From the NCBI GenBank assembly GCA_012719395.1, contig JAAYAL010000045.1, positions 1-64,000 on the forward strand: a stretch of 64,000 nt of DNA, written 5' to 3'. Source of the stretch: Gaiellales bacterium. GTDB lineage: Bacteria > Actinomycetota > Thermoleophilia > RBG-16-64-13. The notes under the pieces are model-generated. The model was not told the origin of the DNA, ran no database searches, and saw only the letters and a list, made by a program, of their open reading frames with translations. Both the position numbers and the translations under genes were made by a program. Each line of letters starts with the position of its first letter. Positions within the stretch are counted from its first letter, which is position 1. Of the stretch, positions 7,180 to 12,544 are shown piece after piece.

Positions 7180-8712
7180 ATGACGGTGGTTATCGACGGG
7201 AACTCCCTGACCTTGGAAGACATCCAGGCGGTTGCGCGCGGGGAGAGGGACGTGCGCCTGCCTGCATCCGCGCTGCCGCGGGTCTTGCGCGCGCGGGAAT
7301 ACGTTGAGCGTCTCTTGGCCGACAATGCCGTGGTCTACGGCGTCACTACCGGCTTCGGCAGGTTCGCCGACGTGCACGTGTCCGGTGTCGACGCCTTGGC
7401 TCTGCAGCGCAACTTGGTCTTCAGTCACTGTTGCGGGGTGGGCGAACCCTTGGGCCCTGAGGAAACCCGGGCCATGATGCTGCTGCGGGCCAACGTGCTG
7501 GCCAAGGGCTACTCGGGGGCGCGCCCCGTTGTCTTGGAGACGCTGCTGGCGATGCTCAACGGCGGCGTGCTGCCTGTGATCCCCGTCCAAGGGTCGGTGG
7601 GGGCGTGCGGTGATCTGGCGCCCTTGGCCCACCTCACGGCGGTTCTCATAGGGGAAGGCGAGGCGATGTACCTCGGCCGGCGCATGCCGGGCGGAGAGGC
7701 GCTGCGGCTGGCGGGCATCGATCCCCTGGTACTGCAGGCCAAGGAGGGGTTGGCCCTCATCAACGGCACCCAGATGATGACCGCTCTGGGGGTGCTCAGC
7801 CTGCTCGAGGCGGAGAACCTGAGCAAGGCGGCCGACATCGCCGCCGCCCAGGCGGTGGAGGCGCTCCGTGGCACCCGCACGCCTTACCTGGAGCGGACCC
7901 ACCTGGTTCGCCCGCACGCTGGGCAGTTGGCCACCGCCCGTAATCTGGTGAGGCTTCTGGAGCACAGCGAGATCCTGGCCTCACATGCCGGCTGCGGCAA
8001 GGTTCAGGATGCCTACTGTCTGCGCTGCGCCCCGCAGGTGCACGGTGCCGCCAAGGACGCGCTGGCCTTCGTGCGCGGTGTGTTGGAGGTGGAGGTTAAC
8101 GCCGCTACCGACAACCCGCTGGTCTTCCCCGAGGAGGAACTGGTGGTCTCCGGCGGCAACTTCCACGGTCAGCCCTTGTCACAGGCCATGGACATCCTGG
8201 CACTGGCCCTGGCCCAGCTGGCCAACATCTCCGAGCGGCGGGTGGAGTGCATGATGGATCCCAGCACCTCTGATCACCTGCCCGCCTTCCTCACCGCGCA
8301 CGGGGGCCTGAACAGCGGCCTCATGATCGCGCAGGTGACGGCTGCCGCCCTTGTCTCCGAGAACAAGACGCTGGCCCACCCCGCCTGCGTGGATAGCATC
8401 CCCACCTCGGCCAACAAGGAGGACTTCGTCAGCATGGGCGCCTTCGCCGCCCGCAAGGCGCGGCAGGTGGTGGGCAATGCTCTGCGGGTGGTGGCCATCG
8501 AATTGCTGTGCGGGGCGCAGGGGTTGGAGTTCCGTGGCGGGCTGCGGGCCGGACTGGGGGTGGCGGCGGCGCACGATGCCATCCGGGAGATGGTGGCAGC
8601 CTTGGCCGAAGATCGACCGCAGACGCCCGACATCGAAACGATCAGCCAGATGGTGCGGGGCGGGTCTCTGGTCAGACGGGTGGAGAGCGTGGTGGGCCCG
8701 TTGGAGCCATGA
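7180..8712 (+). CDS. hutH: Histidine ammonia-lyase with Cys in the MIO triad
   Basis: Deaminates L-histidine to trans-urocanate, first step of histidine degradation. The 510-residue length and motifs (VYGVTTGFGRFAD, GSVGACGDLAPLAH, INGTQMM, NPLVF, GNFHGQPLSQAMD, TSANKEDFVSMG) identify the family. The electrophilic MIO cofactor forms from an internal Ala-Ser-Gly; here the triad is Ala142-Cys143-Gly144 (codon TGC at 7606-7608), exactly where Pseudomonas putida HutH has Ser143. A Cys mutant of that enzyme is known to still form MIO, so activity is plausible. I chose the ATG at 7180 over the TTG at 7165 because the family starts close to it. Its stop overlaps the hutI ATG. Confidence 0.93.
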   Translation: MTVVIDGNSLTLEDIQAVARGERDVRLPASALPRVLRAREYVERLLADNAVVYGVTTGFGRFADVHVSGVDALALQRNLVFSHCCGVGEPLGPEETRAMMLLRANVLAKGYSGARPVVLETLLAMLNGGVLPVIPVQGSVGACGDLAPLAHLTAVLIGEGEAMYLGRRMPGGEALRLAGIDPLVLQAKEGLALINGTQMMTALGVLSLLEAENLSKAADIAAAQAVEALRGTRTPYLERTHLVRPHAGQLATARNLVRLLEHSEILASHAGCGKVQDAYCLRCAPQVHGAAKDALAFVRGVLEVEVNAATDNPLVFPEEELVVSGGNFHGQPLSQAMDILALALAQLANISERRVECMMDPSTSDHLPAFLTAHGGLNSGLMIAQVTAAALVSENKTLAHPACVDSIPTSANKEDFVSMGAFAARKARQVVGNALRVVAIELLCGAQGLEFRGGLRAGLGVAAAHDAIREMVAALAEDRPQTPDIETISQMVRGGSLVRRVESVVGPLEP

Positions 8713-10064
8713 TGATTACGGCCGATCTTCTCATCACGGGGGCGGGAGAGCTCCTGATCTGCCCGGTTCGGGTTCCCGGGGTCACCGGCAGAGCGGACCT
8801 GGGCACCATCTCCCGAGGGGCAGTGGCGGCGCGCGAGGGGCGTATCGTGTGGGTGGGCGAGGGGCCGCGCTGGCGCAGGGAGGTGAGCCTAGTGCCGTCC
8901 GCCGAGGTGGTGGAGGTGGAGGGGCGTGTGGTGATGCCTGGCCTGGTGGAGTGTCACACGCACCTCTGTTTCGCGGGCCGGCGGGCCGACGAATACCAGC
9001 AGCGCGTGCGGGGTGCCACCTACAGGGAACTCGCCGCCGCAGGTGGGGGGATCCTGCGCACGGTGGCCGCCACTCGGGCCGCCTCCAATGCCGAACTGGG
9101 TGCGCTGGTGCAACGGCGGCTTGATCGCTTTCTGGCCTATGGTGTGACCACCGTGGAAGGGAAGTCCGGCTACGGCCTGTCCTCGGAGCACGAGGTGCGC
9201 ATGTTAGAGGTGCAGCGGAGCGTGGCCGCGCAACACCCGGTGGACGTGGTGGGGACAGTGCTGGGGGCCCACACCATTCCCAAGGACTACGCGGGCCGGG
9301 CCGATGAGTATGTGGGCCTCGTTGTGGAGCACATGATCCCTGCTGCGGCCGAGCGCGGGCTGGCCCGGTTCTGCGACGTCTTCTGTGAGGCAGGGGCGTT
9401 CTCTCCGGCGCAGGCCCGGCGAGTGCTGGAGGCGGGGAGGAGGCACGGGCTGCTGCCCAAGCTTCATGCGGACCAGCTCACCTCCAGCGGGGCGACGGAA
9501 CTGGGCGTCGAGATGGGAGCGGCCTCGGTGGACCACCTGGACCGCGTAAGCGACTCGGGGATTGCGGCGTTGAGCCGCGCCTGGGCCGCGCGGGCGGCCG
9601 GGCCCGCCGCGGGAGGCCTGACGGAGCCGGCAGCGGCCTGGAGGGCACCGGTGGCGGTGTTGCTGCCGGGGGCCACGTTCTTCCTGGGGGAGGGAGGAGC
9701 GGCACCTGCCCGTGGTCTTCTGGATGCCGGGGTTCCCGTGGCTCTCAGTACCGACTTCAACCCCGGCTCCAGCCCCACACAGAACCTCTGGCTCATGACC
9801 ACATTGGGATGCTCTCAGCTGCGCATGACGGCGGCCGAGGTCATCCGGGCCGTCACCATCGAGGCGGCGACTGCTCTGGCACTGGAGCACGAGGTGGGCG
9901 GACTGGAGGTGGGGAAGAAGGCCGACATCCTCATCCTGGAATGTGACGATCATCAGGAAATCCCCTACCACTACGGCATGAATCCGGTCCAGCGCGTGTA
10001 CAAGAACGGCAAATGCGTGGGAGGCTCGGCGGGGCCGAAGGCACCCGCAGCTCTCACCGGATGA
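8709..10064 (+). CDS. hutI: Imidazolonepropionase
   Basis: Amidohydrolase-fold enzyme that opens the imidazolone ring to give N-formimino-L-glutamate, third step of histidine degradation. The 451-residue protein has the metal-binding HTHLCFAGRRADEY motif, the TTVEGKSGYGL segment, GAHTIPKDY, the HADQL metal ligand, ALSTDFNPGSSPTQNL with the catalytic Asp, and the GLEVGKKADILILE end. There is an Ala/Gly-rich insertion near residues 295-320 (RAAGPAAGGLTEPAAA) not needed for the fold. ATG overlaps the hutH stop; a second ATG follows immediately. Confidence 0.94.
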   Translation: MMITADLLITGAGELLICPVRVPGVTGRADLGTISRGAVAAREGRIVWVGEGPRWRREVSLVPSAEVVEVEGRVVMPGLVECHTHLCFAGRRADEYQQRVRGATYRELAAAGGGILRTVAATRAASNAELGALVQRRLDRFLAYGVTTVEGKSGYGLSSEHEVRMLEVQRSVAAQHPVDVVGTVLGAHTIPKDYAGRADEYVGLVVEHMIPAAAERGLARFCDVFCEAGAFSPAQARRVLEAGRRHGLLPKLHADQLTSSGATELGVEMGAASVDHLDRVSDSGIAALSRAWAARAAGPAAGGLTEPAAAWRAPVAVLLPGATFFLGEGGAAPARGLLDAGVPVALSTDFNPGSSPTQNLWLMTTLGCSQLRMTAAEVIRAVTIEAATALALEHEVGGLEVGKKADILILECDDHQEIPYHYGMNPVQRVYKNGKCVGGSAGPKAPAALTG

Positions 10065-10078
10065 GGAGGGCCGACCAG

Positions 10079-12196
10079 ATGAAGCCGGGCACGGGCGGTA
10101 CGCTGCTGAAGTCCGCGTTTCCCGAGGAGCTGCCCCTGCCGCCGGTGTTCGCGCCGGGTATCCGCCGGGCTCCGGACCGGGGCTACAACCTCTCGCCTCG
10201 GCAGACGGTGCTGGCTCTCAATAACGCGCTTCGCTACCTGCCGCCGGCGCTACACGAGGCAGTGGCGCCCGAGTTCCTGACGGAACTGCGCGAGCGGGGG
10301 CGCATCTACGGCTATCGCTTCCGGCCCTTGCCCGGCGCGGGAGCAGATCTGGACGGCAGCATCAAGGCGCGACCCATCGATCAGTACCGCGGCATCCTGG
10401 AAGCGCGGGCGCTCCAGCTCAATATCGACAACAACTTGGACTTCGCCGTGGCCCTCTACCCCTATGAGCTGGTCACCTACGGCGAGACCGGCCAGGTCTT
10501 CCAGAACTGGATGCAGTATCGGCTGGTCAAATGGTACCTGGAGCAGATGACGGAGACGCAGACTCTGGTGGTTGCCTCCGGGCACCCGGTGGGGCTCTTC
10601 CCCAGCCACCGCAACGCCCCCCGTGTCATCAGCACCAACGCGCTCATGGTGGGCGAGTTCGACAACGCCGCCGACTTCCACCTGGCCGCCCAGCTGGGCG
10701 TGGCCAACTACGGGCAGATGACGGCGGGCGGCTGGATGTATATCGGGCCGCAGGGGATTGTGCATGGCACCTATCTGACGTTGCTGAACGCCGGCCGGCT
10801 CTATCTGGGTATCCCGCATGACCGGGACCTGGGTGGAGTGCTCTACCTGAGCTCGGGGTTGGGAGGCATGAGCGGTGCCCAGCCCAAGGCAGCCGACATC
10901 GCCGGGGCAGTGAGCATCGTGGCCGAGGTGGACCCCTCGCGGATCGAGACGCGGCGGCAGCAGGGCTGGGTGCAGCGGGTGACGGCCGATCTGGGGCAGG
11001 CCTTTGCCTGGGTGGCGGCTGCGCGCGCCGCCCGCACCCCTCTCTCCATCGCCTTCCAAGGCAACGTGGTGGATCTGTGGCAGTACGTGGTGGACCACGA
11101 TATCGCCGTGGAGTTGGCCTCCGACCAGACCTCCTGCCATGCCGCCTACGAGGGCGGCTACGTCCCCCAGGGCCTGGATTTCGAGGCGGCTCGGGCGCTG
11201 CTGTCGGCCGACCCGGCGGCGTACCGGCGGCGTGTGGACGAATCGCTGCGGACGCAGATCGGCCTGATCAGAGAGATGGTTGGCCGGGGCACCCACTTCT
11301 GGGACTACGGCAACAGCTTTCTCAAGGCGGTGTTCGAAGCCGGCGCCACCGAGGTGGCCGCCAACGGTGTGGATACCCGGGAGGGCTTCACCTATCCCTC
11401 CTACGTGGAGCACATCATGGGACCGCTCTGCTTCGACCGCGGCTACGGCCCCTTCCGCTGGGTGTGTTGCAGCCTGGACCCGGCCGATCTGGCCCGCACC
11501 GATGCGGTGGCCATGAGCTGCATCGATCCGGAACGCTGCCCGCAGGATCGCGACAATCACGCCTGGGTGCGTGACGCCGGCAAGAATCGGCTGGTGGTGG
11601 GGTCTCAGGCGCGCATCCTCTACTCGGACGCCGAGGGTCGTGTGCGTATCGCCCTGGCCTTCAACGACCTGGTGCGCCGGGGCCAGATCGGCCCCGTCAT
11701 CATCGGACGCGACCACCACGACGTCTCCGGGACCGACTCACCGTACCGCGAGACCTCGAACATCCACGACGGCTCCAACATGATGGCGGACATGGCCTTC
11801 CACTGCTGGGCCGGCAACGCGGCCCGGGGCATGACGCTGGTGGTGGCGTCGAACGGCGGTGGCGTGGGCATCGGCCGGGCCATCAACACCGGGTTCGGGC
11901 TGGTGCTGGACGGGTCGGAACGCGTGGACGGCATTATCCGCTCCGCCCTGGAGTGGGACGTCATGGGCGGTGTGGCCCGCCGGGCCTGGGCGCGGAACCA
12001 GGCGGCACTGGAGACGGCGGCGGCGTGGAACGCGGCTTGCGCGCCGGGAGGTGAGGAGGCCGGCGTGGCCGACACGGCGGGCGCGGTGACGGAGGCCGCA
12101 ACGCGTGGGGGCACCGAGACCTGGGGCCATATCACGCTGCCGAATGCGGTGGAGGAGGGGCTGGTGGAGCGCCTGGTGGAGAAGGTCGCCGACTGA
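10079..12196 (+). CDS. hutU: Urocanate hydratase, long UROC1-like form
   Basis: Converts urocanate to imidazolone propionate using tightly bound NAD+. Motifs ELVTYGETGQVFQNW, SGHPVGLFPSHRNAPR, AGGWMYIGPQGIVHGT, SSGLGGMSGAQPKAAD, SDQTSCH, FWDYGN, RDHHDVSGTDSPYRETSN and NGGGVGIGRAIN identify urocanase. At 705 residues it is much longer than the common bacterial enzyme (about 550) and in remembered sequence features closer to animal UROC1 (about 676). The last ~50 residues, after YPSY-to-NQAALE core, are an unconserved tail. I chose the ATG at 10079 with GAGGAGGG eight bases upstream; the ATG at 10061 overlaps the hutI stop. No hutG or hutF follows. Confidence 0.93.
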   Translation: MKPGTGGTLLKSAFPEELPLPPVFAPGIRRAPDRGYNLSPRQTVLALNNALRYLPPALHEAVAPEFLTELRERGRIYGYRFRPLPGAGADLDGSIKARPIDQYRGILEARALQLNIDNNLDFAVALYPYELVTYGETGQVFQNWMQYRLVKWYLEQMTETQTLVVASGHPVGLFPSHRNAPRVISTNALMVGEFDNAADFHLAAQLGVANYGQMTAGGWMYIGPQGIVHGTYLTLLNAGRLYLGIPHDRDLGGVLYLSSGLGGMSGAQPKAADIAGAVSIVAEVDPSRIETRRQQGWVQRVTADLGQAFAWVAAARAARTPLSIAFQGNVVDLWQYVVDHDIAVELASDQTSCHAAYEGGYVPQGLDFEAARALLSADPAAYRRRVDESLRTQIGLIREMVGRGTHFWDYGNSFLKAVFEAGATEVAANGVDTREGFTYPSYVEHIMGPLCFDRGYGPFRWVCCSLDPADLARTDAVAMSCIDPERCPQDRDNHAWVRDAGKNRLVVGSQARILYSDAEGRVRIALAFNDLVRRGQIGPVIIGRDHHDVSGTDSPYRETSNIHDGSNMMADMAFHCWAGNAARGMTLVVASNGGGVGIGRAINTGFGLVLDGSERVDGIIRSALEWDVMGGVARRAWARNQAALETAAAWNAACAPGGEEAGVADTAGAVTEAATRGGTETWGHITLPNAVEEGLVERLVEKVAD

Positions 12197-12283
12197 GCTC
12201 GGTGACAGTACGGGTCGGTGTGCTGTCCAAGATCCACCTGTCGGCTGATGGCGGCATCTTGTCAATGCCAGTATGTTGCGGGC

Positions 12284-12544
12284 ATGGAAGCATCGGATGC
12301 CGTCTTCACGAAACACGCGCTGGACGTCTTGGAGGAGAGGGAAATCGAGCGGCGCTGGGTGCTGCAGGTAGTGGCCCACCCGGAGTTGCTGGTGCTTGAC
12401 GCAGAGGACACTGAACTCCTTCACGTTCTCGCGCGGGTCCCCGACATGGGTGGGAGGGTGCTGAGAGTCATCTATAATCGGACCGTGATCCCTGTGCGGA
12501 TCATTACGGCATACTTCGACCGCACGATGAGGTGGAAGCTATGA
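12284..12544 (+). CDS. DUF4258 protein (putative toxin-like)
   Basis: Eighty-six residues with FTKHALDVLEEREI near the start and a C-terminal GRVLRVIYN...RIITAYFDR, matching the DUF4258 pattern (a histidine-containing N-terminal helix, then beta strands ending in a V-x-T-x-Y/F strand). The family has a RelE-like look and usually pairs with a DUF2283 gene, as here. The stop overlaps the ATG of the next gene. I used the ATG at 12284; an in-frame ATG at 12248 is open but would add a cysteine-rich leader unlike the family. Toxin activity is inference. Confidence 0.75.
   Translation: MEASDAVFTKHALDVLEEREIERRWVLQVVAHPELLVLDAEDTELLHVLARVPDMGGRVLRVIYNRTVIPVRIITAYFDRTMRWKL

Follow-up and report, generated by a model that had tools for sequence, protein, structure and literature searches.

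Our results indicate that the hutH gene of the window, that is, the whole 64,000-nucleotide stretch of Gaiellales bacterium DNA analysed here, probably encodes a working histidine ammonia-lyase whose methylidene-imidazolone (MIO) cofactor would be built from an Ala-Cys-Gly instead of an Ala-Ser-Gly triad. The protein scores 683.3 bits against TIGR01225, 144 bits above the equivalog cut-off of 539.15, matches PF00221 over its full length and is the sole PF00221 protein of a genome that is 98% complete (92 contigs); the same PF00221 search revealed no second, Ser-type HutH elsewhere in this genome. The gene is placed in a histidine-utilisation operon, with hutI and hutU directly 3' of hutH (Table 1), the hutI ATG overlapping the hutH stop codon and both downstream products exceeding their NCBIfam cut-offs, which bears out the earlier claim of the sequence-only reading that the operon is intact. 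FtcD is encoded on another contig and, hence, a route from histidine through urocanate, imidazolonepropionate and formiminoglutamate and onward is complete. A small DUF4258 protein is encoded directly after hutU (window 12218-12544).

Table 1. Coordinates in the window of the hut genes and of the hutH codons discussed in the text.
Feature	Position	Strand	Evidence
hutH, histidine ammonia-lyase homologue, 510 aa, Ala-Cys-Gly triad	7180..8712	+	TIGR01225, PF00221, fold match
MIO-forming triad GCG TGC GGT = Ala142-Cys143-Gly144	7603..7611	+	sequence, translation, alignment to 1gkm
Phe416 codon of hutH (His416 in P. putida HAL)	8425..8427	+	residue-416 comparison
hutI, imidazolonepropionase	8709..10064	+	TIGR01224, 427 bits vs. 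cut-off of 298
hutU, urocanate hydratase	10085..12196 (start codon approximate)	+	TIGR01228, 410 bits vs. cut-off of 375

MIO lyases are recognised by an X-Ser-Gly triad with Ser as the precursor; the window HutH carries Ala-Cys-Gly in its place. Published accounts regard this Ser as strictly conserved (PMC3903478) or as the fixed middle position, with variation listed for the first residue only (PMC9002059). Specifically, when the translation is numbered from its ATG at 7180, the codon at 7606-7608 is TGC and encodes Cys143, and a phmmer alignment to 1gkm pairs this residue with Ser143 of P. putida HAL, so that both the substitution and the residue number given in the sequence-only reading were confirmed. 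A search of 18 genomes of the same order returned 11 with a hutH match, and Cys143, encoded by TGC, was present in all four same-family genomes whose hutH is closely related (identity of 77-100%); these were assembled separately and belong to four genus codes. The three closest relatives apart from the window itself (83, 77 and 77% identity; genus codes g11, g4 and g2, respectively) all have Ala-Cys-Gly, their proteins being found also under named records as those of an Actinomycetes, an actinobacterium and a Thermoleophilia MAG (genome_contigs); the next six relatives, at 66-70% identity, have Ala-Ser-Gly, with TCG or TCC codons where checked. The Cys143 swap is real and fixed in this four-genome clade, and it is older than the split of the four genus codes. 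One could still argue, given the 92 contigs of the window genome, that the TGC codon arose through faulty sequencing or assembly, but the same codon, and not a Ser codon, occurs in the other three genomes, each assembled separately and 77-83% identical at the protein level. Further, synonymous differences between the window gene and these three genes amount to 0.54-0.66 per site, which marks them as independent sequences and excludes a read error; the explanation is already refuted and its probability is negligible.

Comparison of the window hutH with the other three genes gave dN values of 0.12-0.18 against dS values of 0.97-1.56 (about 1.0-1.6), indicating purifying selection. The Cys copy is the only PF00221 member in each of the four genomes, and the order hutH, hutI, hutU is kept in all of them, with ftcD sitting between hutI and hutU in record L018. 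Together with the intact catalytic residues described below, the sole copy, the conserved hut run and the purifying selection make loss of HutH function unlikely. A hutH pseudogene was also considered and found to be unlikely given the strength of this selection, the intact operon and the sole copy. Counting against a working enzyme, the 83%-identity relative (L018; also L003, L202 and L206) has an in-frame TAG at the residue-137 codon (L018:6403-6405), six codons before the Cys, where the other Cys forms have AAG or CAA; this TAG stems either from a nonsense mutation of recent origin or from faulty assembly.

To describe how widely the Cys triad is distributed, we used a degenerate DNA pattern that matches both Ser and Cys triads and misses other triad contexts (e.g., GSLG). 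Counted as pattern matches, which are not totals of all lyases, Cys was found in 2 of 27 in the Actinomycetota sample (the window genome and one clade member), 27 of 138 in the Acidobacteriota sample, 8 of 22 in the small phylum of the Delongbacteria record L050, 8 of 9 in the small phylum of the UBP2 record L061 and 0 of 20 in the Bacillota sample. When 249 genomes of the window's class were searched for the Cys form alone, the matches were to the four window-clade genomes, to five genomes of another family and to one non-lyase. All 27 Acidobacteriota Cys proteins, as well as those read from the two small phyla and from the other family of the window's class, belong to a HutH-like subfamily, hereafter group 2, and within HutH proper Ala-Cys-Gly was found only in the window clade among the samples searched. 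The view of the sequence-only reading that almost every family member has an Ala-Ser-Gly triad stands for HutH proper, where Ser-Ser-Gly is also common, and fails for group 2, where Cys is frequent. The expectation of an isolated rarity did not hold; the window protein still looks, from its catalytic residues and operon, like a natural functional variant.

Group 2 is recognised by KGSVGA[CS]GDLAPM[AS]Q, Asn82, Gln329 and Phe416, and its members score near or below the HutH cut-offs; we found no curated family name for it. It is large and spans several phyla (members include L050:7543-9072, L061:7522-7926, L197, L198, L199 and L228-L254). The group shares the Ala-Cys-Gly triad, Phe416 and the catalytic residues with the window HutH, and differs from it in overall sequence (about 40% identity), in Asn82 and Gln329, in a separate origin of the Cys (below) and in copy number: group 2 genes are often second copies, next to an Ala-Ser-Gly hutH or accompanying one, whereas the window hutH is the sole copy. 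Among the loci examined in the two small phyla, the group 2 gene is the immediate neighbour of such a hutH; in the other family of the window's class the additional copy is located elsewhere in the genome, and in Acidobacteriota no shared gene neighbourhood was seen.

On a tree of 93 rows, from which the columns of the triad and of residue 416 had been left out, the Cys clade of the window falls, fully supported, within a clade of Ser forms and is distant from group 2. One shared origin of the window-clade and group 2 Cys was rejected (AU p 0.0013) and, thus, Cys arose at least twice. The starred branches force at least three Ser/Cys changes on this tree and at least four on a careful 39-row tree. 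Within group 2, Cys and Ser forms alternate; for instance, the nearest relative of L131 (Cys) is L138 (Ser), 90% identical to it, and both forms occur under genus code g19. The sequence record thus indicates that Ser and Cys have replaced each other repeatedly within group 2, and the two residues appear to be interchangeable MIO precursors, an evolutionary interchangeability that supports their functional equivalence.

The remainder of the active site is what would be expected of a histidine ammonia-lyase. Y53, H83, N195, Y279, R282, F328 and E414 are all present in the window HutH (Tyr53, His83, Asn195, Tyr280, Arg283, Phe329 and Glu414 in P. putida numbering), and these residues, along with D145 and Q276, do not vary among the 28 Cys and Ser forms aligned. 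The AlphaFold model of the window HutH (mean pLDDT 91.7) finds its best solved-structure match in P. putida HAL (TM 0.93). The model is uninformative on the triad, since pLDDT falls below 50 at residues 140-142 and nowhere else, and MIO cannot be represented. HAL-fold paralogues that lack one triad residue occur in the same family and class (L015:1381-2823, L016:1504-2973, L267 and L268); they read GSVGAADL, GSLGASDL or GSLGESDL vs. GSVGASGDL and presumably cannot form MIO.

Alternatively, Cys143 might stay a free thiol, with no MIO formed and the protein either inactive or using other chemistry. Such an outcome would be in line with the description of the triad Ser as strictly conserved, its change to Ala costing more than a thousand-fold in activity (PMC3903478), and with the paralogues without an intact triad in the window's own class. 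However, the Cys forms keep all other catalytic residues of MIO enzymes, the window-clade Cys form is the only copy and sits in a conserved hut operon, and Cys interchanges with Ser between close relatives in group 2; such constraint is not expected of a dead enzyme. Hence, we consider the free-thiol explanation improbable and favor a working, MIO-bearing lyase.

Residue 416 is also of note in the Cys forms. Phe416 is found in all 23 Cys143 proteins readable at this position, whereas among 143 Ser143 proteins the residue is His in 121, Phe in 14, Tyr in 6 and Val in 1. This association comes from two independent lineages, and related sequences make up most of the counts. In the Ser proteins that are sister to the window clade the residue is Tyr, and in the Ser proteins of group 2 it is Phe. 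These patterns are consistent with, but do not prove, the hypothesis that Cys143 is tolerated only where residue 416 is aromatic and not His. We do not claim Phe416 as proven co-evolution with Cys143 given the dominance of related sequences and the residues seen in these Ser relatives. It might also be hypothesized that Cys143 was selected for a specific benefit (e.g., maturation tuned to sulphide or redox state) as opposed to being a neutral equivalent of Ser; its fixation in the window clade, its frequency in group 2 across phyla and its constant pairing with Phe416 would fit such a scenario. Nonetheless, repeated Ser/Cys interchange fits a near-neutral exchange, and Phe416 precedes Cys inside group 2 and also occurs in the 14 Ser proteins, so that the pairing rests on few independent events. 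A selected benefit therefore seems unlikely to us.

Under the favored reading of a functional Cys-triad lyase, cofactor formation would begin with the usual autocatalytic cyclisation, in which attack of the Gly144 amide nitrogen on the Ala142 carbonyl is followed by loss of water. Residue 143 would then lose its side-chain group as H2S in place of H2O, which would be the different maturation suggested as a possibility by the sequence-only reading, and presumably yield the same MIO as from Ser. The mature enzyme would carry out the usual deamination of histidine, supplying urocanate to HutU and HutI. The closest characterized system, P. putida HAL (TIGR01225; PDB 1b8f), resembles the window HutH in fold, length, catalytic residues and hutI/hutU operon, and differs from it in having Ser143 and His416 instead of Cys143 and Phe416. 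Langer, Lieber and Retey (Biochemistry, 1994) are said to have converted an engineered S143C P. putida HAL into an active enzyme. This is reportedly the same substitution at the same residue number, in a laboratory mutant, whereas the window Cys143 is natural and fixed in its clade. The literature we searched yielded no paper on S143C or Ala-Cys-Gly; only companion work identifying Ser143 is cited there.

More broadly, and more tentatively, natural MIO enzymes may use Cys as well as Ser as precursor in at least two independent lineages, with maturation of the Cys triads releasing H2S, and replacement of His416 by an aromatic residue may permit or accompany the Cys; we hold this wider model to be possible, with somewhat less than even confidence. 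Natural Cys triads, some of them differing from Ser forms by about 10% in sequence, represent a natural experiment on cofactor formation, and bear on whether H2S can stand in for water as the leaving group and whether Cys and Ser forms mature alike. Finally, searches that require Ser at the triad position would miss or misjudge Cys-triad enzymes.
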